Source of the DNA: Candidatus Cottocaccamicrobium excrementipullorum
Lineage (GTDB): Bacteria > Bacillota > Clostridia > Lachnospirales > Lachnospiraceae
Reading direction: 5' to 3'
Length of the DNA stretch: 34,373 bases
Assembly (NCBI GenBank): GCA_018713255.1
Contig: DVFL01000037.1
Location: 1 to 34,373 of the forward strand
Below, piece by piece: positions 6,523 to 34,373 of this stretch. The position numbers were made by a program, and so were the translations under genes. Each line of letters begins with the position of its first letter. Positions within the stretch are counted from its first letter, which is position 1. The notes beneath the pieces are model-generated. The model was given only the letters and a program-made list of their open reading frames with translations. It had not been told where the DNA came from and did no database searches.

Positions 6523-6547
6523 CTCGCCATATTACATCTTCAATGAT

Positions 6548-6814: not shown

Positions 6815-6887
6815 AGCTTCGTATCTCTCCTTATCTCGTCATTATTTAATTTCCCCAAGATTTCCCCTCTGAAACCTTCTATGGACA

Positions 6888-6916: not shown

Positions 6917-6917
6917 G

Positions 6918-6939
6918 AAAAACGCCTGGCTTTTCAGGC
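6918..6939 (-). terminator. Intrinsic terminator of queH
   Basis: Minus-strand stem GCCTG/CAGGC (6935-6939 with 6924-6928), then G and TTTTT (6918-6922). It starts just after the queH stop codon and butts against the ptsH -35 box. Confidence 0.75.
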
Positions 6940-6943
6940 AGTT

Positions 6944-14940: not shown

Positions 14941-14987
14941 AGGTCCCCTCCTCCTGAAAATGTGTGATTTACAACTTCTTCCATTTG

Positions 14988-15016
14988 AGTATAACATACC
15001 CTAAACTGAAACACAA
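14988..15016 (-). promoter_or_regulatory. Promoter of nfeD-SPFH operon
   Basis: Minus strand: -35 TTGTGT (15011-15016), 17-bp spacer, -10 TATACT (14988-14993), about 48 bp upstream of the nfeD start. Confidence 0.6.
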
Positions 15017-15049
15017 CTTACCAATTTCTTACGTATTTTCATGAAAACG

Positions 15050-15841
15050 TTATTTCTTCCCAGCCCTTCTTCTCTGCCTTGCCGTCTCAAACATCAATAC
15101 CGAAGCAGCCACGGCAGCGTTTAAGGACTCCACCTGCCCTGCCATGGGAATCTTAACCCGGCAGTCGCTTAACGCCGCCGTTTCATCCTTAAGCCCTCTG
15201 GCTTCATTTCCAATGAGAAAGGCGCAGGGACCGGTATAATCTGCTTCATCATAGCTCACCGCTCCATCCAAATGCGCGGCAAACAGCCGAATTCCTTTTT
15301 CCTTCATGGCAAGGCAAGCTTTAGATAAATCCTCCACATAGACAAAGGGCACCCGATAAATGGACCCCATGGTGGAACGAATTACTTTCGGATTATAAAT
15401 ATCCGCCGTCGATTCATCCATCACAAGCGCTGTAATTCCAGCCCCTTCTCCGGCTCTGAGGATGGTCCCTAAGTTTCCCGGATCCTGAAGAGTTTCCAAA
15501 ACCATAATCAGAGGATTTTCTCCTGCATCCAGGATCTCTTCAAGACGATAATGCTTCTGGCGTACCAGCGCCAAAATCCCCTGAGGCGTTTTAGTATCCG
15601 CCATCACTCCCATCACCTGATCAGATACCAGCTCCCAGGAAAAACCTTCCAGCACCTCTTTGTGTTCAGACTCCTTAAGAAAGCTTTCTGACACGTACAG
15701 CCCCTCTACCTGATCAGGCGAAAGCTCCCTGCACATGCGGATTCCTTCCACCACATAAAGGTCCTCTTTCCGGCGTGCTCTGGCCTTTTTCACCAGCTCT
15801 GCCACCCGTCTTACCTGCTTGTTGGATGTGCTGTTAATCAT
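15050..15841 (-). CDS. TrmH/SpoU-family RNA 2'-O-ribose methyltransferase
   Basis: Predicted S-adenosylmethionine-dependent RNA ribose methyltransferase with the SPOUT trefoil-knot fold. An N-terminal substrate-binding domain (about 1-95, YVVEGIRMCRE) precedes the three catalytic motifs: LQDPGNLGTILRAGEGAG (motif 1, with the family Asn and Arg), FLIGNEARGL (motif 2) and VKIPMAGQVESLNAAVAASVLMFE (motif 3, split here for length). At 263 aa it matches RlmB/YsgA-type enzymes; whether the target is 23S rRNA or tRNA cannot be told. Its ATG overlaps the nadE stop by 4 bp (ATGA), so the two are translationally coupled. No clear terminator follows. Confidence 0.9.
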   Translation of the reverse strand: MINSTSNKQVRRVAELVKKARARRKEDLYVVEGIRMCRELSPDQVEGLYVSESFLKESEHKEVLEGFSWELVSDQVMGVMADTKTPQGILALVRQKHYRLEEILDAGENPLIMVLETLQDPGNLGTILRAGEGAGITALVMDESTADIYNPKVIRSTMGSIYRVPFVYVEDLSKACLAMKEKGIRLFAAHLDGAVSYDEADYTGPCAFLIGNEARGLKDETAALSDCRVKIPMAGQVESLNAAVAASVLMFETARQRRRAGKK

Positions 15842-17826
15842 ATTTCTTTCTCCTTCATCTCATCTTCCGTCAAAATCTCTTCTAAGTCCTCAAGCCAAAT
15901 TCTGCGGCTGGCATCACTTGGCATCCGCAGATCCCCTCGGGGAGATACCGCCACCGATCCGACCTTAGGACCGTCAGGAAGACAGGAACGTTTAAACTGC
16001 TGGGCAAAAAATCTGCGGTAAAATACCTCCAGCCATTTTTTAATCACCTGGGGACTATACTCACCCTCAAAAGCCTGAACCGCCATCCGCCAGATTTTAG
16101 AAGGCATGTAGCCGAACCGCAGCACATAATAGAGGAAGAAGTCGTGCAGCTCATAGGGCCCTACCAAATCCTCTGTTTTCTGTGAAATTTTCCCATCCTC
16201 GGGAGGAAGAAGCTCCGGACTCACCGGAGTATCCAACACATCGTAAAGCACTTGAGAAAGCTCTTTTTCCCCGCAGGTATCTGCATAATATCTTACTAAA
16301 TGACGCACCAAGGTTTTGGGAACTCCTACATTTACCCCGTACATGGACATATGATCTCCATTATAAGTGGCCCAGCCCAGGGCAAGTTCCGACATATCTC
16401 CCGTGCCGATAACCAGGCCTCCCTGCTGATTGGCAATATCCATCAGAATCTGAGTCCGCTCCCTGGCCTGACTGTTTTCATAAGTGACATCGTGAATCTC
16501 AGGGTCATGGCCAATATCTCTAAAATGCAGGGCAACAGCATCCTTGATTACTACTTCTTTCAGAGAAGCGCCGATTTTTCTGGTCATGGCGCAGGCATTC
16601 TGATAAGTTCTGTCTGTAGTGCCGTAGCATGGCATCGTAACGCACTGAATCTGACTTCTGGGAATCCCCAGCAGATCAAAGGCTCTGGTTGTCACCAGCA
16701 GTGCCAGAGTAGAATCCAGTCCTCCAGAAATGCCGATCACCGCGCTGCGGCTTCCAGTGTGAGCCAGACGCTTTTTCAGGCCCATAGACTGAATCGACAG
16801 AATCTCCTCGCACCGCTTGCTTCGCTGTCCTTCTTGATGCGGAACAAAGGGCGCCTTGTCGATCACCCGGCGAAGCCTTGTTTTATCATGCCCCTTCAGC
16901 ACAAAATCTATGACCTCATATCCCGCTCCCGCTTCCTCGCTTCCTTCTCCCCAGGAAGACGTCTGATGAAAGGCTCCATAGGTAGTCATTCGCCGGCGTT
17001 CACTGTTTAACCGCTGCAAATCCAGATCAGCGATAATCATCCCGTTGGAAAAGCGTTTGGACTCAGCCAGGCAGGTTCCATTCTCTGCAATTATATTCTG
17101 CCCGCCAAACACCAAGTCTTGAGTTGACTCTCCCTCGCCTGCATTGGCATATACGTATCCGCAGACTAACCGCGCAGACTGCCCGCAGATCAGTTCCCGC
17201 CGGTACACATCTTTTCCCGTGGTTTCATCGCTGGCGGAGCAGTTGACAATCAGAGAAGCTCCAGCCAAGCTATGACGAATGCTGGGAGGGCAAGGCGCCC
17301 ATACATCCTCGCAGAGTTCAGCCGCCGCCACAAGCTCCGGCATCGTCCGGCAGCGAAACAATAGACGGCTGCCCATGACCAGCGGTTCTCCAGAAAATCC
17401 ATCATTTTCCCGCCAGGGGCGATCATTTCCCGGGCAAAAGTGACGAAGCTCATAAAACTCAGAATAATTCGGAAGATTCCGTTTCGGAACCAGCCCAAGA
17501 AGCTTTCCTCGGCAGACAGCCCCGGCCACATTATAGAGCTTTCCCCTCCGTTCCCAGGGAAGGCCCACAAAAATCAGCATATCCATCTCCTTAGATGCCT
17601 GAACGATCTTTTCCAGTTCCTCCTTGGCCTTCCGAATCAGCGGATACTGAAGAAACAAATCCTGGCAGGTATAGCCCGTCAGAGCCAATTCTGGAAATAC
17701 CATGATTTCCACCTGCTCCTTCTCACCTTGCTCCATCAGTTTCACAATCTCTTTCCGGTTATATTCCGGATCTGCCACTTTGATGGTTGGGGTTGCCGCT
17801 GCAACCCGGATAAATCCGTCTTTCAT
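15838..17826 (-). CDS. nadE: Glutamine-dependent NAD+ synthetase
   Basis: Two-domain enzyme (662 aa) that amidates deamido-NAD+ using ammonia from glutamine, the last step of NAD synthesis. The nitrilase-type glutaminase domain (about 1-290) shows the Glu-Lys-Cys triad: Glu46 in FPELALTGY, Lys115 in VPKRNLPNY and Cys172 in ELCEDVW. The synthetase domain (about 330-630) begins with the PP-loop SGGLDSTLAL and includes GTGDMSELALGW and YNGDHMSMYGVN. ATG at 17826 has AAGGAG upstream. It shares a transcript with the spoU gene and is divergent from rrf2. A hairpin sits in its leader. Confidence 0.97.
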   Translation of the reverse strand: MKDGFIRVAAATPTIKVADPEYNRKEIVKLMEQGEKEQVEIMVFPELALTGYTCQDLFLQYPLIRKAKEELEKIVQASKEMDMLIFVGLPWERRGKLYNVAGAVCRGKLLGLVPKRNLPNYSEFYELRHFCPGNDRPWRENDGFSGEPLVMGSRLLFRCRTMPELVAAAELCEDVWAPCPPSIRHSLAGASLIVNCSASDETTGKDVYRRELICGQSARLVCGYVYANAGEGESTQDLVFGGQNIIAENGTCLAESKRFSNGMIIADLDLQRLNSERRRMTTYGAFHQTSSWGEGSEEAGAGYEVIDFVLKGHDKTRLRRVIDKAPFVPHQEGQRSKRCEEILSIQSMGLKKRLAHTGSRSAVIGISGGLDSTLALLVTTRAFDLLGIPRSQIQCVTMPCYGTTDRTYQNACAMTRKIGASLKEVVIKDAVALHFRDIGHDPEIHDVTYENSQARERTQILMDIANQQGGLVIGTGDMSELALGWATYNGDHMSMYGVNVGVPKTLVRHLVRYYADTCGEKELSQVLYDVLDTPVSPELLPPEDGKISQKTEDLVGPYELHDFFLYYVLRFGYMPSKIWRMAVQAFEGEYSPQVIKKWLEVFYRRFFAQQFKRSCLPDGPKVGSVAVSPRGDLRMPSDASRRIWLEDLEEILTEDEMKEKEI

Positions 17827-20377: not shown

Positions 20378-21229
20378 TTATTCAGCTTCTACCTTATCAT
20401 AAATATCCTGAAGATATTGAATATCCTCCCGGAATCTTTCTTTGCTGGAGTTTTCCATAAGCATGGTAATGTACGGCTTCTGAGCTTTTACTAACTTCAT
20501 CAAAGGCTCGTAGTGGAAAAGTCCCTCTCCTACATGACGGTATTTCTGACTCCGTCCTTCAAACACAAAGTCCTTCATGTGCATCATGGAAATCTTGTCC
20601 CCGTAATAAGCGAAAGCCTTGCGGATCACATCCTCCTGGCAGTCCACCTCTTCTGGGTGAATCAGGTTAACGGGATCCAGAATCACTTCCACATTAGGAG
20701 AATCAATATCCTCCAAGAAGCGTTTCATCATCGCCGGACTGTAAAGAGTGTGGTCAAATACTCCTTCCACGCCTACGGTAACGCCCAGCTTCTCGGCAGC
20801 AGACACAATTTCCCGAAAGCTCTTTAATAACAGCTGATAAGCTCCTTCTGTTCTGGTATCCGGAACTACCTTCATATCTGGATCAAGCCGTCCGGTTTCC
20901 GTTCCTACCATATCGGCTCCAATGGCTTTGGCATATTTTAAGTGTTCAATGAATCTGGCTACTTCTGCCTGACGTCTTGATTCAATCGGATTAATAGGGT
21001 TAATGTAGCAGCCTAAAACCGCCACATGAATATCGTTCTTCTCCAGCTGCGTCCGAATATACCTTCCAAAACCTGCACTGTAATGACCGGTGGAAAAATC
21101 ATAATTGGAAATGGACTTTTTAAAAGCCAGCTGCACCTGATGAATATCATTCGCCTTGATCTCCTCAAAAAGCTTTTCCATCTCCATCTTCGGGCATAAG
21201 TCGTGACACCGCATTCCAAACTGGATCAT
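20378..21229 (-). CDS. Sugar phosphate isomerase/epimerase-like TIM-barrel protein
   Basis: A 283-residue protein of the xylose-isomerase-like TIM-barrel (AP endonuclease 2) superfamily. Likely divalent-metal ligands fall at strand ends in the usual order: Glu155 (GVEGVFDHT), Asp185 (VILDPVNL), His217 (MMHMKDF) and Glu259 (MLMENSS). YAKAIGADMVGTETG is the typical third-strand block. Such proteins isomerise, epimerise or dehydrate sugars and inositols; the substrate cannot be read from sequence. AGGAGG lies upstream of the ATG. It follows the KdgF-like cupin by 39 bp in an operon and neighbours the aldarate genes, suggesting a step in uronate or aldarate breakdown. GarL/HpcH-type aldolase motifs are not seen. 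Confidence 0.8.
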   Translation of the reverse strand: MIQFGMRCHDLCPKMEMEKLFEEIKANDIHQVQLAFKKSISNYDFSTGHYSAGFGRYIRTQLEKNDIHVAVLGCYINPINPIESRRQAEVARFIEHLKYAKAIGADMVGTETGRLDPDMKVVPDTRTEGAYQLLLKSFREIVSAAEKLGVTVGVEGVFDHTLYSPAMMKRFLEDIDSPNVEVILDPVNLIHPEEVDCQEDVIRKAFAYYGDKISMMHMKDFVFEGRSQKYRHVGEGLFHYEPLMKLVKAQKPYITMLMENSSKERFREDIQYLQDIYDKVEAE

Positions 21230-21268
21230 GTTTCTCTCCTCCTATATGCTGTGGATTCTGTTTCCGCT

Positions 21269-21598
21269 TTATTTATGGATAAAATCTTCCCGCATTGGGG
21301 TAAACATATCTAACAGCATGGTTTCTTCCAGGGTTTTTACTCCGTGAACCACATTAGGAGCTACATAATAAGTATCGCCTGCAGACAGCACTTTATCCTC
21401 CTGTCCTTCTTCCTGATAAATCAAAGAACCAGAAATGATATAGCCAATCTGCTCGTGGGGATGGCTGTGCTTAGCGCCAATGGCTCCCTTTTCAAAATGA
21501 AGCTCCACTGCCATGATATTGGGAGAATAGGATAACACCTTTCTCACCACACCCTCACCAGCTGGATCAGCTGTAACATTTTTGTTTTCTACGTACAT
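21269..21598 (-). CDS. Cupin-domain protein, KdgF-like
   Basis: Single-domain cupin of 109 aa. The metal site is GAKHSHPHEQIGYIISG (His44, His46, His48, Glu49, Gln50) and the second cupin motif is APNVVHGV (His85). The C-terminal block LLDMFTPMREDF has Asp97, Phe99 and Arg103, the D-x-F-x3-R spacing I recall for the active site of KdgF, which linearises unsaturated galacturonate from pectin or alginate. That, plus the neighbouring acid-sugar enzymes, makes a uronate ring-opening role likely, but many small cupins look alike. AAGGAGG precedes the ATG. It is first gene of a two-gene operon, divergent from the AEC permease. Confidence 0.75.
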   Translation of the reverse strand: MYVENKNVTADPAGEGVVRKVLSYSPNIMAVELHFEKGAIGAKHSHPHEQIGYIISGSLIYQEEGQEDKVLSAGDTYYVAPNVVHGVKTLEETMLLDMFTPMREDFIHK

Positions 21599-21846: not shown

Positions 21847-22755
21847 ATGGATGGCTTTATCAGCATGGTTAACGCCCAAATGATTCTTCTTCTCTATCTG
21901 GCAGTGGGAATGTACTGCCGCATGAAAAATATTATTGATGATCATGCCAAGGGAAAACTGACTGATCTGGTGCTGAAAATCACGCTCCCTTGTATGATCT
22001 TCGCCTCTTTTAACCGTCCCTTGACGCCGGATGTGCTGCAGAAAACCGCCCTGGTTCTTCTCGTTGCCCTGTGCATCGCCCTTCTTTCCTTCATCGGCGG
22101 AAAATTTCTCTATTACCGCTATCCCCATGAACGGAAATGTATTCTCCAATACTGTACCTTAGTCAATAACTCGGGATTTCTGGGCATGCCCATGGTTTCC
22201 TCTGTTTATGGAGCAGAAGGTCTTCTCTACGCCTCGTTCTTTATTATCCCGAATCGGATTATGATGTGGAGCGCCGGATTATCTCTCTTTACCCAGTCGG
22301 ATTTTAAGAGCAAGTGCAAAAACATTCTGTTAAATCCAGGTATTATCGCCTGCTTTCTGGGATTGGCCAGACAGCTGCTGTTAATTCCTCTTCCAGGATT
22401 TTTAGACAGCGCCATCGGCAACATCGGCAGCACCACCTCTCCCCTTTCCATGATGATCATCGGCACCATGCTGGTAGGTGTCTCCTGGAAATCTTTGCTG
22501 GAACCAAGCATTTTCTATCTGGGCGCTGTCCGCCTCATTGCCCTTCCGCTGATTGCCTTAGTAATCATGAAACTCCTCGGCTTCGAACCTATGCTGACGG
22601 GAGTATCCTTGATTCTCACCGCAATGCCCGCCGGAAGCACCAGCGCTTTATTAGCCTCTAAATACGGAGCCGATGCAGATTACGCTTCCCGGTGTATTAT
22701 TGCTACCACTATCTTATCCCTGATCACGATTCCCCTTCTGATGCTGCTGATCTGA
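21847..22755 (+). CDS. AEC-family transporter (auxin efflux carrier type)
   Basis: Integral membrane permease of 302 aa with about ten hydrophobic helices in the 5+5 arrangement of the AEC (PF03547-type) family. Recognisable blocks are the first helix MILLLYLAVGMYCR, KLTDLVLKITLPCMIF, the mid-protein YCTLVNNSGFLGMP with conserved Asn and Pro, and near the end LILTAMPAGSTSALLASKYG. Bacterial members move malate, malonate and other carboxylates, so an acid-sugar or related organic acid is a reasonable guess here; direction and substrate are not determined. AGGAGG precedes the ATG. It is divergent from the cupin operon and convergent with gudD. It is the only transporter gene in the cluster. Confidence 0.88.
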   Translation: MDGFISMVNAQMILLLYLAVGMYCRMKNIIDDHAKGKLTDLVLKITLPCMIFASFNRPLTPDVLQKTALVLLVALCIALLSFIGGKFLYYRYPHERKCILQYCTLVNNSGFLGMPMVSSVYGAEGLLYASFFIIPNRIMMWSAGLSLFTQSDFKSKCKNILLNPGIIACFLGLARQLLLIPLPGFLDSAIGNIGSTTSPLSMMIIGTMLVGVSWKSLLEPSIFYLGAVRLIALPLIALVIMKLLGFEPMLTGVSLILTAMPAGSTSALLASKYGADADYASRCIIATTILSLITIPLLMLLI

Positions 22756-22848: not shown

Positions 22849-24177
22849 TTACCGTACCAGACAAGGCTTCTTCGGATCAAACTTCCAGCCAGGAATCAGG
22901 TACTGCATAGCCATAGCGTCATTTCTTGCGCCCAGGCAGTTGTCCATATACAGCTGATGTGCCTTCCGGATCTGATCCATATCAACTTCGATGCCAAGGC
23001 CCGGCTTCTTGGGAACTTCCACGCAGCCGTCAACGATCTGCAGCGGCTCCTTGGTCAGTCTTTCCAGACCTTCCTGCCAGATCCAGTGGGTATCCAATGC
23101 ATTGTACTCCCCAGGAACAGCAGCGCCTACCTGAGTAAACATCGCCAGAGAAATATCAAAATGGTTGTTGGAATGGCTGCCCCAGGTATAACCGAAGTCG
23201 TGGCACATCTGAGCCACGCGGACAGAACCGCTCATGGTCCAGAAATGAGGATCAGCCAGAATAATATCAACAGCCTGAGACTCTAAGGAGTGTCCTACTT
23301 CTCTCCAGTCTGTAGCAATCATGTTGGTAGCGGTGGGGAATCCGGTACGGCGTCTGAACTCACTCATGATCTCTCTTCCGGAATATACGCCCTCTGCACC
23401 GCAGGGATCTTCACAATAGGTCAGAATTCCCTGCATGCCCTTTACATACTCAACTGCCTGCTCCAGCAGCCATCCGCCGTTGGGATCCAGGTCGATTCTT
23501 GCATTGGGGAATTCTTTCTTCAGGGCACGGATTACATCCATTTCCTCATTTCCAGGAAGCACGCCGCCCTTTAACTTAAAGTCCTCAAATCCGTATTTCT
23601 CTTTTGTGGCCTTGGCAAAAGCAACGATCGCATCAGCAGTCAGAGCTTCCTCATGGCGGATGCGGTACCACTCGCAGTCAGAATCCGGCTCAGAGTCATA
23701 GGGAAGATCTGTCTTCTTTCTGTCGCCTACAAAGAATAAGTAGCCCAGCATGCGGACCTTATCTCTCTGCTGGCCATCGCCTAACAGCTGACATACCGGA
23801 ACGCCTAAGTATTTGCCCAGCAAGTCTAAGCAGGGAGCCTCAATAGCGGTCTGCACATGTACGCCGGTACGAAGGTCAAAGGTCTGGTTTCCTCTTACGT
23901 CAACCTCGCCCTTGGAATCCAGATATTTCTTAACTTTTAACAGAGTACCCTTATACTCGGAAATCTTGGTGCCCTCTACAATGGGGATGCACTCTTCCAG
24001 AGCCTTGGTGATCTTCTGTCCGCCAGGAACCTCTCCCACGCCTACTTCGCCGTTGTCCGCATATAAAATAACAACGTTTCTGGTAAAGTATGGTGCATGA
24101 GCGCCGCTTAAGTTAAGTTCCATACAGTCTTTTCCGGCTACTGGCCAGACTTCCATTTTGGTAATTGTTGGTACCAT
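22849..24177 (-). CDS. gudD: D-glucarate dehydratase GudD
   Basis: Enolase-superfamily enzyme dehydrating D-glucarate (and L-idarate) to 5-keto-4-deoxy-D-glucarate. At 442 aa it aligns with E. coli GudD from memory with a constant offset of four. [10 protein letters not shown] holds catalytic Lys201/Lys203; Asp231 (LDPNGG), Glu256 (CEDPCGAE) and Asn285 ([10 protein letters not shown]) bind Mg2+; SHSNNHFD holds His335, the second acid/base. [19 protein letters not shown] and the C-terminal MQYLIPGW are also family hallmarks. ATG at 24177 has GGAGGG upstream. It is divergent from a LysR gene that is its probable activator, with promoter at 24238-24266. It is the best-supported glucarate enzyme of the two gudD-like genes here. 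Confidence 0.95.
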
Positions 24178-24237
24178 ATCCTTATCCCTCCATTTTTAAT
24201 ACATTTTTTCCTAAATGCTTGTCTTTTTGTTGGTTTT

Positions 24238-24266
24238 ATTGTATAAAACATATATGCATAAGTCAA
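24238..24266 (-). promoter_or_regulatory. Promoter of gudD with central palindrome
   Basis: Minus strand: -35 TTGACT (24261-24266), 17-bp spacer, -10 TACAAT (24238-24243). The spacer contains the palindrome TATGCATA. A LysR-type regulator from the facing gene could bind here. The complementary promoter for the LysR gene is not clear. Confidence 0.65.
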
Positions 24267-24317
24267 GGTAATTGTTTTTATATTATCTCTAAGCAAAACT
24301 TCTTAACAGGAGAAACC

Positions 24318-25250
24318 ATGGAATTAAAGCAGTTAGAATATATTGTAAAAATAGCAGAAGAAGGAAGCATTACTAAAGCGGCAGAAAAGCTGTTTATCTC
24401 TCAATCTGGCCTAAATCAGCAGCTGTTAAAACTGGAAAGCGATCTTGGGCAGCAGCTGTTTCACCGGGGCAAGAACGATTTCCGCCTGACAGAAGCTGGA
24501 GAAATCTACGTGGATTATGCCCGCCGAATTTTAAGCCTGAAGCAGGAGGCATACAATAAACTAAATGATCTGGCCAATAACCAAACTGGCAGACTGCGTC
24601 TGGGCCTTACGCCGGAACGTGGGATCAACATGCTGATGAACGTCTATCCCGCCTTCTACCGTCAATATCCGAATATCACCATCGAACCCCAGGAAATCAA
24701 CATCCACCAGCAGCTGTCCATGATTGCCAAGGGATACCTGGATCTTGGCTTCGTCACCTTAAGCGAGGAGGATAAGACTAACGATGAATATGTGCATATT
24801 TATTATGAAAATATTCTTCTGGCCGTTCCCCGGTCCAATCCTCTGGCCGCCAATGGCGCTCCTCCTGGCGAACCCTTTGCCACCGCCGATCTGTCTAAGT
24901 TTCGCAGCGAAAAATTTGTGCTGATGTTTAAGGATTCCACCTTAAGAAGAGTGATTGATCCTCTTTTTAAAGAAGCTGGTTTTGCTCCCCAGATTTTGTT
25001 TGAAACCTCCAGCAACGTTACGCTGCGCAACATGGTAAAAAATCAGCTGGCCTGTTCCCTGATCTCTCACAATTATGCCAAAGACCAGGAGGACATTGCT
25101 TACTTTTACCTTCCCTCCCGCCCCTTCTGGGAGCTTTGCGCCACATACAAAAGAGGCCACTATCTTACGAAAGCAGCCTCTTCTTTCCTTGAGCTTGCTA
25201 TCCAGCATTACCGGAAAACCGCTCTGGAAAATCATCAAAGTATTGTATAA
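24318..25250 (+). CDS. LysR-family regulator, probable regulator of gudD
   Basis: Transcription factor of 310 aa. The N-terminal winged helix (about 1-60) is MELKQLEYIVKIAEEGSITK followed by AAEKLFISQSGLNQQ and KLESDLGQQLFHR. The linker helix precedes a periplasmic-binding-like effector domain (about 90-300). ATG at 24318 follows AACAGGAG; an earlier ATG in frame would add 51 unlike residues. It is divergent from gudD by 140 bp, the classic LysR layout, so it most likely senses glucarate or its product and controls gudD. It resembles the third LysR at 29411 more than the second (shared SGLNQQ/SALNQQ, LTEAGEIYV). Its stop codon directly abuts that of garD. Confidence 0.9.
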   Translation: MELKQLEYIVKIAEEGSITKAAEKLFISQSGLNQQLLKLESDLGQQLFHRGKNDFRLTEAGEIYVDYARRILSLKQEAYNKLNDLANNQTGRLRLGLTPERGINMLMNVYPAFYRQYPNITIEPQEINIHQQLSMIAKGYLDLGFVTLSEEDKTNDEYVHIYYENILLAVPRSNPLAANGAPPGEPFATADLSKFRSEKFVLMFKDSTLRRVIDPLFKEAGFAPQILFETSSNVTLRNMVKNQLACSLISHNYAKDQEDIAYFYLPSRPFWELCATYKRGHYLTKAASSFLELAIQHYRKTALENHQSIV

Positions 25251-26768
25251 TCAGGTGATAGGCGCCGGGTTAAAGATGCACAGATCGTTGTGCAGCTTAT
25301 ATTTCTCGGCAAAGCTTTGTTTGCGCCCGCTGGCCACATCAATAATCTCCATAAACAGCTGAGTTCCAATATCTGCGATGGTGGCCTCTCCTGTGGCAAT
25401 CGGGCCCGCGTTAATGTCAATCAAATCCGGCCACTGCTCCTTCATCTCGTTTCTGGAACATACTTTGATCACCGGCGCGATGGCCAATCCGTAAGGCGTT
25501 CCCCGGCCGGTCATAAATACCTGAAGACCGATGCCGGAAGCCAGCTGACAGGGTCCGCAGACAATATCGCTGGCAGGCGTTGCCGCGTAAATCAATCCTT
25601 TCTTCGTCGGCTTTTCTGCCGGAGAAAGAACCTCCACAATCGGTGAAGTTCCAGATTTGGCAATGGACCCCATGGCCTTCTCCACAATATTGGCCAGGCC
25701 GCCCTTCTTGTTTCCCGGCGTAGGGTTGGCGCTCCGGTCTACCTGCCCTTCCGCCAGGTAATTGTCATACCACTTCATCTCAGCCGCAAGCTTCTTTCCC
25801 ACTTCTTCATTGACGCACCGCTCCGCCAGAAGGTATACGCCGTCGCGAACCTCTGTCACCTCAGAAAACAGCACGGTAGCGCCGCCTTTTACCAACATAT
25901 CTGCTGCGTAGCCGGCAGAGGGATTAGCCGTCACTCCGGAAAATGCATCGCTTCCTCCGCACTGCATGCCAATCAGCAGATCAGACAGAGGCAGAGTCTG
26001 ACGTTTCCTCTGATTTAAAATCGCCAGCTTCTTATCCGCCATCTCCATAAGAGAATTGATCATTTCATCAAATCCCTTCTTCTCCTGAAGGATAATCACA
26101 TTCTCCGGCGTAATATCCGCCTCATCACAAAGCATCTCTACAGTAAACTTCTCGCAGCCAAGGCCTACCACCATCAGCTGTCCTCCGAAATTCGGATGCT
26201 TGGATAGATTTCTCAAAGCGCGGATAGGCACCTTTGCCTCCGGCGCATTAATGGCCACGCCGCACCCATAGGCATGATTAATGGGAACAATGTCGTCCAC
26301 ATTGGGATATTTAGGCAGAAGCTCTTTCTTCATCCGCTCCACAGCCACATTCAGCACGCCGGTCACGCACTGCACCGTAGTGCTGATGCCCAGAATATTT
26401 CTGGTGCCGGCAGGACCTCCCCAGGGGTTAACATAGCCCTCCCAAGTAGTAACCGGCGGTTCCGGAAGATCAGTAACCAGATTGGTGGCAAAGGTCATGT
26501 TGTCTACATCAGGAGGCGTAGGCAGATGAAGCATGAATTCATTGATCCAGTCCCCCTTCTTAATATCCTCAATAGCATAACCAAGAACCACTCCATAACG
26601 GATAACCGGCTGATCCTTCGGGATATCACAGAGGGCTATCTTATGTGCCTGTGGAATATCATGACGGGCAATCACCCCATCCATCACCTGGGTCCCCTTT
26701 TTGATCTCGTGAACAGCAATCGCTACATTATCCTGATCCTTGATCTTTACAAACAACGGTGTCTGCAT
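25251..26768 (-). CDS. garD: Galactarate dehydratase GarD (UxaA/GarD family)
   Basis: Iron-dependent dehydratase turning galactarate (mucate) into 5-keto-4-deoxy-D-glucarate. The protein (505 aa) has the N-terminal SAF domain (about 8-85, [19 protein letters not shown]) and then the catalytic UxaA-type region: [91 protein letters not shown] and LYAATPASD-like [13 protein letters not shown]. These blocks and the FNPAPIT C-terminus agree with E. coli GarD rather than altronate dehydratase UxaA. ATG at 26768 has GGAGG 8 nt away; the in-frame ATG at 26789 lies before that site. It is divergent from the second LysR gene. Confidence 0.94.
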
Positions 26769-26803
26769 GTTTGTTTCCTCCTCTCTCATTCCTTTCTGCT
26801 ATC

Positions 26804-26832
26804 AGTATAACCGATTTAATTATATAAGTAAA
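26804..26832 (-). promoter_or_regulatory. Promoter of garD
   Basis: Minus strand: -35 TTTACT (26827-26832), 17-bp spacer, -10 TATACT (26804-26809), 36 bp before the garD start. The spacer and upstream flank are strongly AT-rich, suited to a LysR-type activator. Confidence 0.65.
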
Positions 26833-26921
26833 ATTAATAGAACTTTTATTTCTCGTAAAAAAATTAAGAACACATCTGGTCATTCTTTTCTGCTACAATA
26901 AACTTATCAGGAGGAATTGCC

Positions 26922-27815
26922 ATGGATACCAAATACCTTAATTACATTCTGACCATTGCAAAAAAACAGAACATGACTAAAGCTGCCGAGGAACTTTTTG
27001 TCTCCCAGTCTTCCTTAAGCCAGTATTTAACTAAACTGGAAAGCCAGCTGGGAACCCCTCTGTTCTTCCGCAGCAAAGGCCGCCTTACCCTTACACCGGC
27101 AGGACAGCTCTATGTGGAAGCTGCCAAAAAGGTTCTTGCCATCAAGGATGATCTCTACCGGAACATTCAAAGCCTGGACAATCGAGGCCATATTACCATC
27201 GGTGTAACTTCCCAGTTCGGCTTAAAAATGCTTACTGAAATCATTCCCCCCTTTAAATCTGACTTTCCTGAAGTAACAATTGAAATTACAGAATCCAACG
27301 TTCCCGTTCTTACCCGGCTGATTCAGGAGGAAAATATCGACTGCGCCATTATGGCCCTAAACTCCCCCGGCATCTTCAGTCCCGATCAGATTCACATCCT
27401 CCGGCAGGAAGAAGTTTTTTGGGCTGTTCCCAGAAGCCATCCCTACTGCCAGGAAAATAAAGGCCATCCTGTAACGCCAAAAGAGCTTTCCCAGCACTTT
27501 TCCGGCGTCCCTGTATTTTTATCCAAAAAAGGATCCAGCCTTCGCCCTCTGGAAGACCAGATCATTGAAGATGCTCATCTAACCATGACCACAGTTTGTG
27601 AAACCAACAGCATTACCGCTGCCCGAAGTATGGTAGCCATGGGAATCGGCGTAACTCTCATCGCCGCCTCCTGCGCCTCAGATCTGGAGCATGTTGCCTA
27701 CTATCCCTTCAGCCCCCCGCTGACCCGATTAAATGCCTTTGTCCATCGAAAAAACTGGGCAAAAAATCCGCCGGAAGAAAATCTTCTCCAGCGGATTCTG
27801 TCCTATTTCCCCTAA
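26922..27815 (+). CDS. LysR-family regulator, probable regulator of garD
   Basis: Transcription factor of 297 aa. The winged helix has MDTKYLNYILTIAKKQNMTK, AAEELFVSQSSLSQYL and KLESQLGTPLFFR; the effector-binding domain spans about 88-297. It is divergent from garD by 153 bp with AGGAGG before the ATG, so galactarate or a product is the likely ligand and garD the target. It is the most diverged of the three LysR proteins here, in keeping with a different enzyme partner. The 3' end is 53 bp from the convergent second gudD-like gene. Confidence 0.9.
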   Translation: MDTKYLNYILTIAKKQNMTKAAEELFVSQSSLSQYLTKLESQLGTPLFFRSKGRLTLTPAGQLYVEAAKKVLAIKDDLYRNIQSLDNRGHITIGVTSQFGLKMLTEIIPPFKSDFPEVTIEITESNVPVLTRLIQEENIDCAIMALNSPGIFSPDQIHILRQEEVFWAVPRSHPYCQENKGHPVTPKELSQHFSGVPVFLSKKGSSLRPLEDQIIEDAHLTMTTVCETNSITAARSMVAMGIGVTLIAASCASDLEHVAYYPFSPPLTRLNAFVHRKNWAKNPPEENLLQRILSYFP

Positions 27816-27824
27816 CCTGACATC

Positions 27825-27845
27825 GGTGTGCAAGGAAGGTACACC
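27825..27845. terminator. Weak hairpin between convergent LysR and gudD-like genes
   Basis: GGTGTGC/GTACACC (7 pairs including one G-T) around AAGGAAG. No T-run follows on either strand, so termination here is uncertain. Confidence 0.35.
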
Positions 27846-27868
27846 CTCTCTTTGACCGACGCTAATGG

Positions 27869-29221
27869 TTACCGTACTAAAGCCGGCTTTTTGCAGTCGT
27901 ATTTCCATCCAGGAATCAGATACTGCATCGCCACCGCGTCATCTCTGTCATGGGAAGGAAGCTTATTGTAAAGTGCATTGGCCTCCATCACTTTATCCAT
28001 ATCAATGGTTACGCCCATTCCCGGCTTGTCCGGTACCTGGAGATAGCCATCCACAATCTGAGGCGTATCCTTTAACAGATTCTGGCCGTCCTGCCAGATC
28101 CAATGGGTATCCAAGGCCGTAGGATTGCCTGGAGCGGCAGCTGCCACATGAGCAAATGCCGTCAGGGTAATATCAAAATGGTTGTTGGAATGACTTCCCC
28201 AGGTAAGTCCCCAGTCATTTAAAATCTGGGCCATGCGCACGCTTCCTCCAAATCCCCAGAAATGAGGATCAGCCAGCACAATGTCCACAGATTTCAGGGC
28301 AGCTGCATGATAGAACTGTCTCCAGTCAGTGGCAATCATATTGGTCGCCACCGGAAGCTTCACCGCATTTTTAAATTCCGCCATGATCTCTCGGCTGGAA
28401 TATCCTGCTTCAGGGCCGCAGGGATCCTCAATATAAGTCAGCACATTTTCCATTGGACGACAAAGCTCAATCGCCTCCTGAAGACTCCAGGCGCCGTTGG
28501 GATCGATGTTGATCCGTCCATTAGGGAAGGCTTTCTTAAGCGCACGAACCGCTTCCATTTCTTCACTTCCTGGAAGAACGCCTCCCTTCAGCTTAAAGTT
28601 CTGGAACCCATATTTTTCATGAAGAACCTGAGCCTGCTCCACAATCGCCGCCGGCGTCAGCATAGGACTGCGGCGGATTTTAAACCAGGGGTCTTTGCTG
28701 TCCTTTTCATCAATGTAGGGAAGATCTGGCGCAGCCTTCTCCTTATCACTGATGTAAAACAGATATCCTAAGGTTTCCACCTTGTCTCTCTGCTTTCCAT
28801 CCCCCAGCAGCTCACACATCGGCAGATTCAAATACTGCCCTAAAAGATCCAAAAGTGCACATTCAATGGCCCACTCCGCCTTCACCACAAACTTTAACTT
28901 GCTGATATCCAGGGTCTGAATTCCCTCCCCATCATCCTCGGCAGCCCGCTTACTGGCTTTATGAATGCTGTCCAGAATTCCCCGGTATCTGCCGATGGGC
29001 TTTCCTACTACCAGGGGAATACAGCTTTTCAACGCATCGCAAGTATAATCCCCTCCATGAATTTCTCCAATTCCCGTATGGCCGGCGCTGTCTTTTAAAA
29101 TCACCAGATTTCGGGTAAACCAGGGGGCATGAGCCCCGCTGAGGGTCATCAGCATGCTGTCATACCCGGCTACGGGAATAACCTGCATCTCTGTAACAAT
29201 TGGCGTTCCTTTTCCTTCCAT
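27869..29221 (-). CDS. Enolase-superfamily acid-sugar dehydratase, GudD/GudX-like
   Basis: A 450-aa paralogue of the gudD product at 22849. It keeps all catalytic residues: Lys210/Lys212 ([10 protein letters not shown]), Asp240 (IDPNGA), Glu265 (IEDPCGPE), Asn294 ([10 protein letters not shown]) and His344 (SHSNNHFD). So it is active in principle, unlike poorly active GudX proteins. It differs in the N-terminal capping domain (an insert near 90-112 rich in charged residues) and in the active-site rim (HFWGFGGSVRMAQ against [13 protein letters not shown]). It may therefore prefer another aldarate such as idarate or galactarate. ATG at 29221 has AGGAGG 9 nt upstream; 29 earlier codons in frame are unsupported. 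It is divergent from the third LysR gene. Confidence 0.88.
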   Translation of the reverse strand: MEGKGTPIVTEMQVIPVAGYDSMLMTLSGAHAPWFTRNLVILKDSAGHTGIGEIHGGDYTCDALKSCIPLVVGKPIGRYRGILDSIHKASKRAAEDDGEGIQTLDISKLKFVVKAEWAIECALLDLLGQYLNLPMCELLGDGKQRDKVETLGYLFYISDKEKAAPDLPYIDEKDSKDPWFKIRRSPMLTPAAIVEQAQVLHEKYGFQNFKLKGGVLPGSEEMEAVRALKKAFPNGRINIDPNGAWSLQEAIELCRPMENVLTYIEDPCGPEAGYSSREIMAEFKNAVKLPVATNMIATDWRQFYHAAALKSVDIVLADPHFWGFGGSVRMAQILNDWGLTWGSHSNNHFDITLTAFAHVAAAAPGNPTALDTHWIWQDGQNLLKDTPQIVDGYLQVPDKPGMGVTIDMDKVMEANALYNKLPSHDRDDAVAMQYLIPGWKYDCKKPALVR

Positions 29222-29256
29222 GATCAATCTCCTCCTGACCGCTTTTTTATGATTAA

Positions 29257-29317
29257 ATTTTACCAAGATTTTATTATTTTCTCCAATATATAATCCTGAT
29301 TTTACCAATAAGATTTT
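29257..29317. repeat. Direct repeat upstream of the second gudD-like gene
   Basis: ATTTTACCAAGATTTT (29257-29272) and ATTTTACCAATAAGATTTT (29299-29317) share the same order, with a 3-bp insertion in the second. Their starts are 42 bp apart, four helical turns, in the divergent gap between the dehydratase and its LysR gene. They are candidate binding sites for that LysR protein. No clean -35/-10 pair for the dehydratase was found. Confidence 0.45.
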
Positions 29318-29347
29318 CTAATCCTTCTAAAGCCGGACTATTTGTCC

Positions 29348-29376
29348 TTGATTTTAAGGCTAAAATAAGCTATGAT
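29348..29376 (+). promoter_or_regulatory. Promoter of the third LysR gene
   Basis: -35 TTGATT (29348-29353), 17-bp spacer, -10 TATGAT (29371-29376), 35 bp before the start codon. Confidence 0.6.
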
Positions 29377-29410
29377 TTGAGCAAACCGGCAATGATTAGG
29401 AGGCAGCATA

Positions 29411-30337
29411 ATGGATACAAAACAAATCGAGTATATTTTAAAAATTGCAGAAGAAAACAACATCACCAAGGCTGCAGCCAAACTTTACATCACTCAATCT
29501 GCGCTGAATCAGCAGCTGATCAAGCTGGAAAAAGAGCTGGGCACGCCTCTCTTCCACCGTTCCCGAACCAACTGGCACCTTACCGAAGCAGGGGAAATTT
29601 ATGTCAGAAACGCCAAACATATGCTTCAGATTAAAAAGGACACTTACCAGATGATCCACGATCTGACAGAAGGACGATGCGGCCATCTGTCCGTAGGATT
29701 TACGGCAGGGCGGGGAATTACCATGTTTACCACCTCCTACGCCGTATTTCACCAGCGGTATCCCAATATTATTATTGAACCAAAAGAAGGAATTGTTCAT
29801 GACCTTCAGCGTCTGATTGCTCAAGGAGATCTGGATATCGGTTTTTTAACCCTGACAGACAAGGATAGGACAGACGATGTTTATGAAACCATTTATCGAG
29901 AAGAACTGTTCCTGGCAGTTCCCTCTGTTCATCCCATCGCCAGAAGCTATTCCACAAAAGAAGGCGGTTATCCCACCATTGATATCAGCGCATTTCAATA
30001 TGAACCCTTCGTCCTCATGGATAAACGTTCCACCATGCACACCTTGATTAATCAAATTTTTGCCGATGCAGGATTTGAGCCTCAAGTATTATTCGAAACA
30101 GGAAATAATCATACCATTATTTCCATGATCAAAGCCAATCTGTGCTGCGGTATTCTTACATACTATTATGTAAAAGACCTTCCGGAAGGCATCACCTGCT
30201 TTCGCCTCCCCAGCCGCCCCACCTGGGAATTCACTGCCAGCTATAAAAAAGGCCGGTATCTAAGTGAAGCCGCCAGGTGCTTCATTGACTTAATGAAGCA
30301 GCAATGGGGAGACGCCGGGAAAGAGCTGCCTGCCTGA
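29411..30337 (+). CDS. LysR-family regulator, probable regulator of the second gudD-like gene
   Basis: Transcription factor of 308 aa. The winged helix contains MDTKQIEYILKIAEENNITK, AAAKLYITQSALNQQ and KLEKELGTPLFHR; the effector domain covers about 90-295. AGGAGG lies upstream of the ATG. It is divergent from the dehydratase by 189 bp, so local control is likely. Shared stretches with the LysR at 24318 (LTEAGEIYV, GFTAGRGI against GLTPERGI, IIIEPKE against ITIEPQE, and ATYKRGHYLT against ASYKKGRYLS) suggest that the LysR-gudD pair duplicated as a unit. The terminator stem begins within its last codons. Confidence 0.9.
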   Translation: MDTKQIEYILKIAEENNITKAAAKLYITQSALNQQLIKLEKELGTPLFHRSRTNWHLTEAGEIYVRNAKHMLQIKKDTYQMIHDLTEGRCGHLSVGFTAGRGITMFTTSYAVFHQRYPNIIIEPKEGIVHDLQRLIAQGDLDIGFLTLTDKDRTDDVYETIYREELFLAVPSVHPIARSYSTKEGGYPTIDISAFQYEPFVLMDKRSTMHTLINQIFADAGFEPQVLFETGNNHTIISMIKANLCCGILTYYYVKDLPEGITCFRLPSRPTWEFTASYKKGRYLSEAARCFIDLMKQQWGDAGKELPA

Positions 30338-30494: not shown

Positions 30495-33400
30495 TTATGC
30501 TTCTTTGTCTTTCTTCCGCTTTCTGGAAATTCCGAAAGCTCCCAGCAAAGATACCAGCATCATTCCCACCAGTCCGCTGATGGATATGCTGTTGTCGCCA
30601 GTTCTGGGAAGGCCGATTAACGGCACTTCCTCCTCAGGAATTACAGGAGTTCCTGATTGCTCTCCTCCGGGAAGAGGCGCCAATGGCACTTCTTCGGGAT
30701 TAATAGTTACGGTAGTTCCGGGATCATCGGTACGAATCACAGAGCTTGCACCGCCCTCAGGGGTGGAACCGTTTCCGCCTCCGCCGCCAGTTCCGCTGCC
30801 GCCTCCGCCGATCCGGTTAAACATCGCCGTAAAGGTGGCATCCGCCGTAAATTCTGCCGCGCGGATCGCATCTGCATCCCTGTAATTCTGATCCCCGAAG
30901 GTCCATCCTCCGAACCGGAAGCCAACCGTTGCCGTTACAGTAACATCTGCATCGGGGTGAACCGGCATTCTAGAAGCTTCGGTATATACGCCATCCTCAA
31001 CAAAGGTGTGTACCTCGTAGGTGGTTCCTTCTACTCTTCCATTTCCTCCAGATACATACTGGAAGATAGTCTGGTACTTATCCGGAATTCCGTCAGGATC
31101 ATCCGGCACATTGTCGTCCGGATTCTCAGGATCCGTTCCGCCCTTCGTATCCTCCGCGAAGTACGCGGTGAAGATAACATCGTCTGTATAGGTTTCAGCC
31201 TTTAACTGAGTCATGGCCGCCGAGAAATCTTTCTGGCTTCCGTCAATGGTCCAGTAGTCGAAGGCGTAGCCTGCATCAGGCCGTACCGTTACTTTTGCTT
31301 TCGGGCTTACGGCTGTTTTGACAATAAAGTCACCGTTCTCATCCGTAAAGGTATGAGTTTCATAGGTCTTTCCGTCTACTGTTCCGTTTCCGGCAGATAC
31401 ATACTTAAAGATGATCTGATACATATCCGGGATATTATCCTCTTTATCCGGGATAGGATCTGTTGGATTCTCCGGATCAGCTTCTCCCGGATTGCCCTTT
31501 TCATCTAATGCATAATAAATATTTACAATATTTTCTTCTGCATTCAATCCAACGGTTTTATCCTTTGTTGCTAGATAGTCCGGCCAATCTGGCAGAAGCA
31601 CATAGTGAAGCTCATCCTTCACAACTTCATTAACCGGTTCAGCTTTCAAAATCACTTCACCATACTGCGCTGTCTTGCTGTGATCAATTACCTCCGAACT
31701 TGTCTCTTTTCCATCTGCATCCAGGTAAATTCGGTTTACCGTATACGACAAATCGTAGCGCTGTTCTACAACCAATCTGCCAGGAACCAGCTGAATCTCA
31801 TAATTCGCTGTCGTATCCTCCCCGCCAATAAGAGTTTCAAGAATTCCTGTCGTTTCAACCCGGACGCTTTCTCTTCTGATAGCATTAGAAGAGGATCCAA
31901 TTTCTACTTGACTTCCATCGTATTCAAGCTCACGCTCTACTACACGCTCTCCTTCTACTACACCTTCAATGCTTTCCGCAAACTCAGCAGTAAGAGGCTT
32001 TCCGTCATACAGTTTAGAGGCGCTGCCAGCAGTGAGCACTAACTTTGCTTTCTCAATGACCAGGGTGCCAGGGGTTGTGGTAACCATAAATTGACTAGTT
32101 ACATCATTTCCTTCCACATCTCTTACAACTGCATTGCCCGTTACTTCAACTGTGTAAGAGCCTGCAGCCGTTGCCGCTGCTTTTGCTGTCAGTCCCTCCA
32201 CCGTATACGTTCCGCCATCTGCCGTAACGAATGTGGTGGCTTTCAGACCTTCCACAACCTGCTCCTTGCCGTTATACGAATAAACAGCACTGTTTGCTTC
32301 TACATTAATCGCGTACTTAACGCCCTTGTCCCGCACAATCAACTGGCCTTCGGACTTAATAATATTGTAGTTTTCAGCCTTTGTATTCTCATTCAAAGTA
32401 TATTCGAAGGAATTAGGACTGCTTCCTACTAATGTCTGGGTTCCGGTAAAGGTATACTCTGCACCTTCTCCTTCTGCCCATCCAGTTTCTGTTGCAAGAG
32501 GTTCATTTCCATTAACAAGAGGCTTGCCGTCATATTCTTTGGTAAGATCCTTACTTCTTAATACAACCTCCCTCTTATTGATGATCAACTGACCATTTAC
32601 AACCAAAACAGAGAATTGATCCGTTACATCATTACCTGCAGCATCTTTTACCACTGGGGTTCCGGTTACATTTACCGGATAGGTTCCTGCATCGGTTTCC
32701 TTCGCTTCTGCAGTAAGGCCTTCTACCCTATAAGTGTTTCCTTCTATCTCAAAGGTTGTTGCAATAAATCCACTTACGGCCTTCTCCGTTCCATCATATA
32801 CCGTTGTATCGCTGTTTGCCTCGATGGTAATCTCATACTTGGCATCACGGTTAGTTACCGTCAACGTTCCATTCTGGATTGTGATGATGTAGTTTCCAGC
32901 ATCCGTTCCCGCATTCAGCTCATAGGTGAAGTAGTTCTCACTGCTTCCCACTAAGGTCTGACTTCCGGTTACAGCATAGGATGCTCCTTCACCTGCCGCA
33001 AAACCATCTCCGCTTACCGTTACCTCATGATTCGTTAATGGAGTACCATCATAAGGTTTGCTGGCTGTCGCGCTGGTTAAGGTAACTGTTCTCTTCTCAA
33101 TGGTCAGTTTGCCATCAAGAGTCTTTACAGAGAATTGATCCGTTACATCATTTCCATCCGCATCCTTCACCACCGGGGTTCCGGTTACGTTGGCTGGATA
33201 AGTTCCCGCATCAGTTCCCTTTGCCTCTGCGGTAAGGCCCTCTACGGTATAGGTCTGACCGTCAATCACAAAGGTATCTTCCACCAGGCCGCTTACAGTC
33301 TTTTCAGTACCATCATACTTCTCAGTTCCGCTGTTGGCCACTACGGTGATTTCATACTTAGCATCACGGTTGGTTACCGTCAGAGTTCCGAGCTGGATGG

Positions 33401-34373
33401 TGATGGTGTAGTTTTCTGCATCTGTTTCGGCATTCAGCTCATAGGTAAAGTAATTCTGGCTGCTTCCTACTATGGTCTGACTTCCGGTGACGGTATAAAC
33501 TGCTCCCTCACCTGCTGCAAAGCCATCTCCTCCTACCGTTACCTCATCATTCGTTAACGGCGTGCCGTCATACTCCTTGCTGGCGGTTGCGCTGGTTAAG
33601 GTCACGTCACGCTTCTCGATGACAAGACTTCCATTCTCAGTCTTCACAGAGAACTGACTGGTTACATCGTTTCCTTCCGCATCTTTCACTACCGGAATTC
33701 CCGTTACATTAGACGGATATGTTCCCGCATTGGTTCCCTTTGCTTCTGCAGTAAGGCCCTCTACAGTATAGGTCTGGCCGGCAATGGTAAAGGTTGTGGT
33801 TTCGAACCCGCTTACGGTCTTTTCCATTCCGTCATACTTCTCGGTTCCGCTGTTGGCCACTACGGTGATTTCATATTTTGCATCGCGGTTGGTTACTGTC
33901 AGGGTTCCCGGGTTTGTGGTAATGGTGTAGTTTCTTTCATCTGTTCCGGCATTCAGCTTATAGGTGAAGTAGTTCTGGCTGCTTCCTACTAAGGTCTGAC
34001 TTCCGGTTACAGCATAGGATGCTCCTTCACCTGCCGCAAAACCATCTCCTCCTACCGTTACCTCATCATTTGTTAACGGCGTACCGTCATACTGCTTGCT
34101 GTCCGTTGCGCTGGTTAAGGTAACTGTTCTCTTCTCAATGGTCAGTTTGCCATCAAGAGTCTTTACGGAGAACTGATCCGTTACATCATTTCCATCCGCA
34201 TCCTTCACCACCGGGGTTCCGGTTACATTGGCTGGATAAGTTCCCGCATCGGTTCCCTTTGCCTCTGCGCTAAGACCCTCTACAATATAGGTCTGACCGT
34301 CAATCACAAAGGTATCTTTCACCAGGCCGCTTACAGTCTTTTCAGTACCATCATACTTCTCAGTTCCGCTGTT
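30495..34373 (-). CDS. Large LPXTG-anchored surface protein with MBG/YDG-like repeats (N-terminus outside window)
   Basis: C-terminal 1292 residues of a cell-wall protein; the reading frame is still open at the right edge. Order from the N-terminal side: alternating domains of about 85 aa with EKYDGTEKTVSG and KEYDGTPLTNDEVTV motifs (MBG/YDG type, about 31770-34373). Next is a segment YTVNRIYLDADGKE like a MucBP domain (about 31480-31765). Then come two InlB_B/Flg_new-like repeats (YVSAGNGTVDGKTYETHTF, about 31145-31425; YVSGGNGRVEGTTYEVHTF, about 30812-31080). A Gly-rich linker (GGGGSGTGGGGG), a Pro/Glu-rich wall spacer, and LPRTG (30597-30611), a hydrophobic helix and RKRKKDKEA complete it. 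Sortase A-type anchoring is expected, with the repeats as stalk or adhesin. Ligand unknown. Confidence 0.93.
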   Translation of the reverse strand, partial: NSGTEKYDGTEKTVSGLVKDTFVIDGQTYIVEGLSAEAKGTDAGTYPANVTGTPVVKDADGNDVTDQFSVKTLDGKLTIEKRTVTLTSATDSKQYDGTPLTNDEVTVGGDGFAAGEGASYAVTGSQTLVGSSQNYFTYKLNAGTDERNYTITTNPGTLTVTNRDAKYEITVVANSGTEKYDGMEKTVSGFETTTFTIAGQTYTVEGLTAEAKGTNAGTYPSNVTGIPVVKDAEGNDVTSQFSVKTENGSLVIEKRDVTLTSATASKEYDGTPLTNDEVTVGGDGFAAGEGAVYTVTGSQTIVGSSQNYFTYELNAETDAENYTITIQLGTLTVTNRDAKYEITVVANSGTEKYDGTEKTVSGLVEDTFVIDGQTYTVEGLTAEAKGTDAGTYPANVTGTPVVKDADGNDVTDQFSVKTLDGKLTIEKRTVTLTSATASKPYDGTPLTNHEVTVSGDGFAAGEGASYAVTGSQTLVGSSENYFTYELNAGTDAGNYIITIQNGTLTVTNRDAKYEITIEANSDTTVYDGTEKAVSGFIATTFEIEGNTYRVEGLTAEAKETDAGTYPVNVTGTPVVKDAAGNDVTDQFSVLVVNGQLIINKREVVLRSKDLTKEYDGKPLVNGNEPLATETGWAEGEGAEYTFTGTQTLVGSSPNSFEYTLNENTKAENYNIIKSEGQLIVRDKGVKYAINVEANSAVYSYNGKEQVVEGLKATTFVTADGGTYTVEGLTAKAAATAAGSYTVEVTGNAVVRDVEGNDVTSQFMVTTTPGTLVIEKAKLVLTAGSASKLYDGKPLTAEFAESIEGVVEGERVVERELEYDGSQVEIGSSSNAIRRESVRVETTGILETLIGGEDTTANYEIQLVPGRLVVEQRYDLSYTVNRIYLDADGKETSSEVIDHSKTAQYGEVILKAEPVNEVVKDELHYVLLPDWPDYLATKDKTVGLNAEENIVNIYYALDEKGNPGEADPENPTDPIPDKEDNIPDMYQIIFKYVSAGNGTVDGKTYETHTFTDENGDFIVKTAVSPKAKVTVRPDAGYAFDYWTIDGSQKDFSAAMTQLKAETYTDDVIFTAYFAEDTKGGTDPENPDDNVPDDPDGIPDKYQTIFQYVSGGNGRVEGTTYEVHTFVEDGVYTEASRMPVHPDADVTVTATVGFRFGGWTFGDQNYRDADAIRAAEFTADATFTAMFNRIGGGGSGTGGGGGNGSTPEGGASSVIRTDDPGTTVTINPEEVPLAPLPGGEQSGTPVIPEEEVPLIGLPRTGDNSISISGLVGMMLVSLLGAFGISRKRKKDKEA
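32842..34373 (-). repeat. 519-bp tandem repeats inside the surface-protein gene
   Basis: The anchor GCATC(A/G)CGGTT (reverse strand of the NRDAKYE codons) recurs at 32842, 33361 and 33880, exactly 519 bp (173 aa) apart. The third copy runs off the window. Each unit encodes one A-type and one B-type domain. Long stretches are near-identical between copies, with changes such as TVSG/AVSG and LVEDTF/FETTTF. A diverged unit (about 522 bp) precedes, with anchor near 32320. Copies are in frame, so the number can vary without breaking the gene. Confidence 0.85.

Follow-up and report, generated by a model that had tools for sequence, protein, structure and literature searches.

Three divergent LysR-dehydratase pairs in a Lachnospiraceae aldarate island, probably old units reshuffled between genomes

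Why should three acid-sugar dehydratase genes lie side by side, each facing a LysR regulator gene of its own? The question is raised by a stretch of 34,373 nucleotides from Candidatus Cottocaccamicrobium excrementipullorum (Lachnospiraceae; contig DVFL01000037.1), hereafter the window, which makes up the whole of contig C21 in a genome of 3.37 Mb and 96% completeness. Positions 22849-30337 hold three successive divergent pairs, gudD1/LysR1, garD/LysR2 and gudD2/LysR3, in the order and on the strands described in an earlier note made from the letters alone, and the reading frames of all six genes are open. That note suggested that each regulator senses its own stereoisomer, and that a LysR-gudD pair had duplicated around garD. 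The three-pair layout is not chance, because each LysR-enzyme pairing recurs in other genomes. It is probably the upper half of the Bacillota gud/gar (glucarate/galactarate) pathway, composed of three old LysR-enzyme units that were co-inherited and reshuffled, with no local duplication. The island comprises the following features.

22849-24177, minus strand: gudD1, D-glucarate dehydratase type of the enolase superfamily, 442 amino acids, 65% identical to Escherichia coli GudD
24178-24317, no strand: divergent promoter region of gudD1 and LysR1
24318-25250, plus strand: LysR1 regulator, 310 amino acids, tail to tail with garD
25251-26768, minus strand: garD, galactarate dehydratase, 505 amino acids from the preferred start
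26825-26839, no strand: candidate half-operator TAAGTAAAATTAATA close to the garD promoter, with two exact copies in its own genome
26854-26868, no strand: second half of the putative operator, at a spacing of 14 nt
26922-27815, plus strand: LysR2 regulator, 297 amino acids, of another LysR clade than LysR1 and LysR3
27869-29221, minus strand: gudD2, second glucarate-dehydratase-type enolase, 450 amino acids from the preferred start, of a separate old clade
29283-29324, no strand: conserved element upstream of gudD2, in an alignment judged by eye, without a statistic
29411-30337, plus strand: LysR3 regulator, 308 amino acids

Ribosome-site reading places the starts of gudD1, LysR1, LysR2 and LysR3 at 24177, 24318, 26922 and 29411, and moves those of garD to 26768 (505 amino acids, not 512) and of gudD2 to 29221 (450 amino acids, not 479). 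With the revised starts, the intergenic gaps are 140 bp for gudD1/LysR1, 153 bp for garD/LysR2 and 189 bp for gudD2/LysR3, and the ends of LysR1 and garD meet with a gap of zero. All three regulators have an N-terminal HTH_1 domain and a LysR_substrate domain, and are divergent from the adjoining enzyme gene; none reaches a cut-off among its best 25 NCBIfam models.

Gene order in relatives carries the first part of the answer (locus counts exclude ten loci taken as duplicates of loci from the same genomes). A garD of at least 68% identity occurs in 11 of 299 family genomes, its own genome included, and one further genome (G025) adds two high-identity pieces; within the genus, gudD2 is present at 87% identity or more in 9 of 11 genomes and garD at 93% or more in 8 of 11. 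Relatives of LysR1 (at least 65% identity) face gudD1 in five of six loci, the sixth being cut by a contig end, and relatives of LysR3 (above 70%) face either gudD1 (7) or gudD2 (5) in 12 of 12. Relatives of LysR2 face garD in 8 of 11 loci; in the other three, the regulator faces a transporter gene ahead of garD (G300), faces TctB (L166, 45% identity) or has LysR1 upstream on the same strand (G302). Such a comparison had been put forward as the check on co-inheritance, and by these counts the LysR genes are largely inherited with their neighboring enzymes.

The order of the pairs is more variable than the pairs. The triple layout, for which no parallel had been known to the earlier note, occurs also in the sister genome G300 (L074), where a gene for a 448-amino-acid transporter separates LysR2 from garD. 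Beyond the genus, it is seen in Clostridia bacterium UC5.1-1D2 (L117), whose draft sequence has LysR1, LysR2 and further genes in pieces. The 448-amino-acid transporter is also found beside garD in G299, where LysR2 is missing from that place. Six of the 11 genus genomes (G111, G301, G302, G303, G306 and G307) have gudD1 and gudD2 in tandem behind a single divergent LysR3, with TctBA downstream of gudD2 in all six loci; LysR2 faces garD in five of them, and G302 has LysR2 without garD at that place. G302 (L077) also has two gudD1 copies (6023-7357 and 14751-16079), one beside LysR1 and one within the LysR3 unit. The tree puts zero branch length between them, which suggests that one was copied recently or that gene conversion took place. 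This wide variation within the genus is what would be expected if the triple layout were a passing product of loss and shuffling with no regulatory meaning, the pairs having become neighbors through loss of transporter genes that separated garD from gudD2. The TctBA genes and the 448-amino-acid transporter of the sister loci, neither found in the window genome, fit that account, whereas the recurrence across genera of the pairings, as opposed to their order, speaks against it. It is a serious candidate, at somewhat less than an even chance.

Did one LysR-gudD pair give rise to the other around garD? This was addressed with a GudD tree, from which 17 of 66 rows were removed as near-identical, and a LysR tree, from which 19 of 74 rows were removed as near-identical or very distant and which excludes the split LysR genes of L117. 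GudD1 and GudD2 are 55% identical and fall in two clades, gudD2 with 17 rows (support 100/100) and gudD1 with 30 rows (100/97). Genomes with both genes, from Erysipelotrichaceae and unplaced Clostridia, are represented in each clade, as are other orders. Placing E. coli GudD and GudX on one side of a branch is not rejected by the approximately unbiased (AU) test (p 0.392), so that the tree settles only the separation of the two clades, and not how gudD1 and gudD2 branch with respect to E. coli GudD.

The regulators are divided in a similar manner. LysR1 and LysR3 are indeed closer to each other (48% identity) than either is to LysR2 (about 35%), which lies far from both in the tree, and this likeness is what a local duplication has in its favor. 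However, the orthologues of LysR3 make up a single clade (100/100, 11 rows). In its sister clade, likewise of 11 rows (92/88), 10 regulators have garD, or a LarA-type gene close to it, opposite them. LysR1, for its part, is joined in the tree by an orthologue of Candidatus Lachnoclostridium stercoravium (97/89). Forcing LysR1 and LysR3 into one clade costs 17.6 log units and is not rejected (AU p 0.147). Even if the two were sisters, their split would be older than the genus, because both have orthologues outside it, and orthologous pairs occur there as well. Both LysR1/LysR3 and gudD1/gudD2 are thus seen as old paralogues with separate relatives elsewhere, and local duplication of the pair around garD is therefore not supported by the sequences; it is largely refuted and appears very improbable.

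The enzymes bear out the description of the locus as an aldarate utilization island. GarD passes the curated equivalog cut-off of TIGR03248 (galactarate dehydratase; 770 versus 731 bits), and GudD1 and GudD2 match TIGR03247 (glucarate dehydratase) over nearly their full length, with neither GudD1 (728 bits) nor GudD2 (647 bits) reaching the equivalog cut-off of 829 bits. By score, GudD1 comes closest to 4hyr, a glucarate dehydratase of solved structure, and GudD2 shares 57% identity with E. coli GudD. The active sites were compared at 19 positions, taken as the catalytic and binding positions of E. coli GudD; 16 of these held the expected residue in E. coli, and three that did not were set aside. 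All 16 usable positions are identical in GudD1, GudD2 and also E. coli GudX. At position 155, one of the three set aside, GudD2 has S where GudD1, E. coli GudD and GudX have G. The catalytic residues thus appear intact in both enolases, as claimed, but the presence of the same 16 residues in GudX means that they say nothing on the substrate that GudD2 prefers. Judged by family and residues, GudD1 and GudD2 would dehydrate D-glucarate, and probably also L-idarate, to 5-keto-4-deoxyglucarate, and GarD would dehydrate galactarate to the same compound.

The lower pathway lies on contig C9 of the same genome, where two PrpR-type sigma-54 regulators, garR, a DapA-like aldolase gene and a glycerate kinase gene stand in a row. 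GarR (C9:47605-48471) scores 435 bits, above the TIGR01505 cut-off of 341. The GudL-type DapA-like aldolase (L186:9503-10402; PF00701) holds M110, K167 and K194, which are residues discussed for GudL of the Enterocloster clostridioformis pathway (Levy et al., 2025; PMC11775122). With the island as the upper half and garR-gudL-garK on C9 as the lower, the genome therefore has both parts of the gud/gar pathway, in which GudL, GarR and GarK would convert 5-keto-4-deoxyglucarate to pyruvate and a phosphoglycerate. The PrpR-type sigma-54 activator pair is immediately upstream of garR-gudL-garK (L186:4340-8279, on C9), and it is possible that it regulates the lower pathway.

The gud/gar pathway described for E. 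clostridioformis has the same enzymes, GudD, GarD, GarR and GudL (Levy et al., 2025). A strain of that species, [Clostridium] clostridioforme AGR2157 (L115), has orthologous enzyme genes together with orthologues of LysR2 and LysR3, in the order garR-like, gudL-like, LysR3 facing gudD2, TctBAC, LysR2 facing garD, gudD1 and AEC (the garR-like and gudL-like genes being named by length and N-terminal sequence). The identity of its gudD1, 63.7%, is close to the GudD identity of 64.3% stated in the text of that paper, and TctBAC presumably corresponds to the paper's GarABC, a transporter that stands there outside the minimal pathway. In comparison, the window island adds the LysR1-gudD1 pair, its genome is without a TctBAC-type transporter, and garR-gudL-garK is on another contig. 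The island is thus a variant of a gud/gar pathway already known from relatives, and what is new here is old, separate LysR-enzyme units reshuffled between species. The word "LysR" appears nowhere in the main text of PMC11775122. Among the literature matches listed, no title or abstract opening dealt with LysR control of gud/gar genes in Clostridia.

In E. coli, CdaR is the shared regulator of glucarate and galactarate use. Monterrubio et al. (2000) reportedly describe a common regulator of the gud and gar genes. Despite homologous GudD and GarD enzymes, the window differs from E. coli in having three LysR regulators instead of one and a DapA-like GudL instead of GarL, and no GudP-type gene is among the annotated genes of the island. 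In Halomonas, the GguR regulons have TctABC, a predicted TTT-family transporter for galactarate and glucarate (PMC5507952). A TTT-family transporter is likewise present in sister genomes of the window; in contrast to the window, GguR is a single, shared regulator of the GntR family.

Transport in the window genome may instead depend on a gene that adjoins the island.

21847-22755, plus strand: AEC-family permease (PF03547), candidate aldarate transporter, likewise adjoining the island in several relatives

Of the 92 garD loci compared, the window among them, 29 have an AEC match at a distance of up to 8 kb from garD.

How the three pairs might be regulated can be approached through their promoters. 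The half motif TAAGTAAAATTAATA was built from 16 of 17 eligible sites in other genera (7 distinct) at which a LysR3-like gene faces garD or LarA, and four same-genus loci were held out. It is found at p 0.005 in seven of eight promoters between LysR2 and garD, the window included, and at p 0.015 in the eighth. Matches at gudD promoters are weak, and a two-part model was therefore used, which adds a second half, CTTAATTTTTTTAAG, learned from the LysR2-garD loci and located about 14-15 nt away. This two-part motif reaches p 0.003 in all eight LysR2-garD promoters, the loci on which its second half was trained, that of the window included, and p ≤ 0.007 in seven of eight LysR3-gudD1 promoters, which were unused in training (L077 and L085 being near copies, and L081 having a distant LysR piece). 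The LysR1-gudD1 promoters show it in two of five (p ≤ 0.007), and the LysR3-gudD2 promoters in two of five (p ≤ 0.013). Within 145 kb of its own genome, the garD site is the sole two-part match that scores at least 16 with a gap of 13-15 nt. Its second half is a degenerate palindrome in the window and a perfect one in sister genomes (L075, L076 and L079). A whole-genome pattern search with the first half returned two exact matches and one with a mismatch, and the backwards control returned one. The other exact copy (G000:C16:13472-13486; L220) lies between open reading frames that by eye are purL-like and phosphofructokinase-like, and may be chance.

The other two promoters have conserved elements of their own. 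Blocks at 24235-24249, about 24259-24273 and 24289-24304 of the gudD1/LysR1 region align in all five LysR1-gudD1 loci. The gudD2 element (about 29283-29324) is shared by 10 of the 13 genomes aligned and occurs with either LysR3 or gudD1 as the preceding gene; 13 of 16 extracted stretches entered this alignment. L111 had no upstream bases, L117 had a misplaced start, its element being visible in a separate alignment, and L125 does not show the element. The six tandem genomes have gudD1 between the motif on the LysR3 side and the gudD2 element, and gudD1 has thus moved into or out of the LysR3 unit. Having three different conserved elements in the three window promoters leaves room for separate control, and on sequence grounds separate promoter control of the three enzymes is plausible.

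Separate sensing of stereoisomers by the three LysR proteins is a further claim, and unproven, because members of one LysR clade stand opposite gudD1 or gudD2 while in its sister clade garD or a nearby gene is the usual partner, and because both GudD active sites look alike. The regulators could instead form a shared regulon, reading nearly the same operator in response to a common signal such as 5-keto-4-deoxyglucarate, so that the enzyme paired with a regulator would say little about the isomer sensed. The garD motif at seven of eight LysR3-gudD1 and some LysR1-gudD1 loci, its occurrence where different LysR clades face garD, and the single product expected from all three enzymes are consistent with such a regulon. 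Yet the three promoters of the window carry different elements, and the LysR2 clade is well apart from LysR1 and LysR3. A shared regulon is accordingly possible, if on the doubtful side.

The finding of the garD-type motif at garD promoters that face different LysR clades also bears on how the units were reshuffled. The gene directly opposite garD is LysR3-like in 19 of 92 loci, LysR2 in 8 and something else in 5, and in the remaining 60 the upstream neighbor is on the same strand or missing. It can tentatively be proposed that the garD operator was kept across Lachnospiraceae while the facing LysR was replaced by one of another clade, the garD regulator being LysR3-like in Lacrimispora and others and LysR2 in Enterocloster and in the window; once displaced, the LysR3 line would have moved to gudD, where the gudD2 element would have evolved.

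The reading preferred here is that the three LysR-enzyme pairs would be old units, inherited jointly across genera and rearranged inside this genus. Each dehydratase would share a promoter with its divergent LysR gene, whose product would presumably bind a two-part operator and activate transcription upon encountering an aldarate or the keto-deoxy product. Several observations weigh against this. In six of 11 genus genomes, gudD1 sits behind LysR3 and not LysR1. The core of the TAAGTAAAATTAATA motif was picked by eye after the alignments had been viewed, those of LysR2-garD included. As a control, the regions upstream of 15 other LysR genes in the window's genome were scored: the half motif reaches p ≤ 0.01 in two and p ≤ 0.05 in four, and the two-part motif has the same counts; the motif is therefore partly generic to LysR promoters. 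Furthermore, its two-part form is not significant at the window's gudD1 (p 0.33) or gudD2 (p 0.44) promoter. As for transport, the 96%-complete genome has no match to TctA (PF01970), for which the control was positive in 5 of 14 genomes. A search of it for the 448-amino-acid transporter, made without a positive control, found no homologue either.

Other genes were seen in and around such loci. The window's genome encodes a LarA-like nickel-pincer isomerase (G000:C25:32154-33317; L187:9070-10368) of NCBIfam group 22, over the cut-off. It may be an aldarate epimerase, because 18 of the 92 loci have a match to its family at a distance of up to 8 kb from garD. Beside the island, positions 20378-21598 hold a sugar-isomerase-like TIM barrel (PF01261) and a small cupin, one of which is also found near the related loci in G302, G303 and G305. 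Next to LysR3, positions 30495-34373, up to the contig end, encode a long, repetitive surface protein. It has an LPXTG-like anchor at the C-terminus and, with weak Pfam scores, an MBG-like repeat.

For commensals, the collected loci point to likely regulators of aldarate use and to a candidate operator. The natural variants, in which gudD1 and gudD2 stand in tandem behind one LysR or have one LysR each, could be used to test for separate isomer sensing. If the operator was indeed retained while its regulators changed, the LysR trio would be a circuit open to re-wiring, its members overlapping in operator specificity, and not a set of three private switches.

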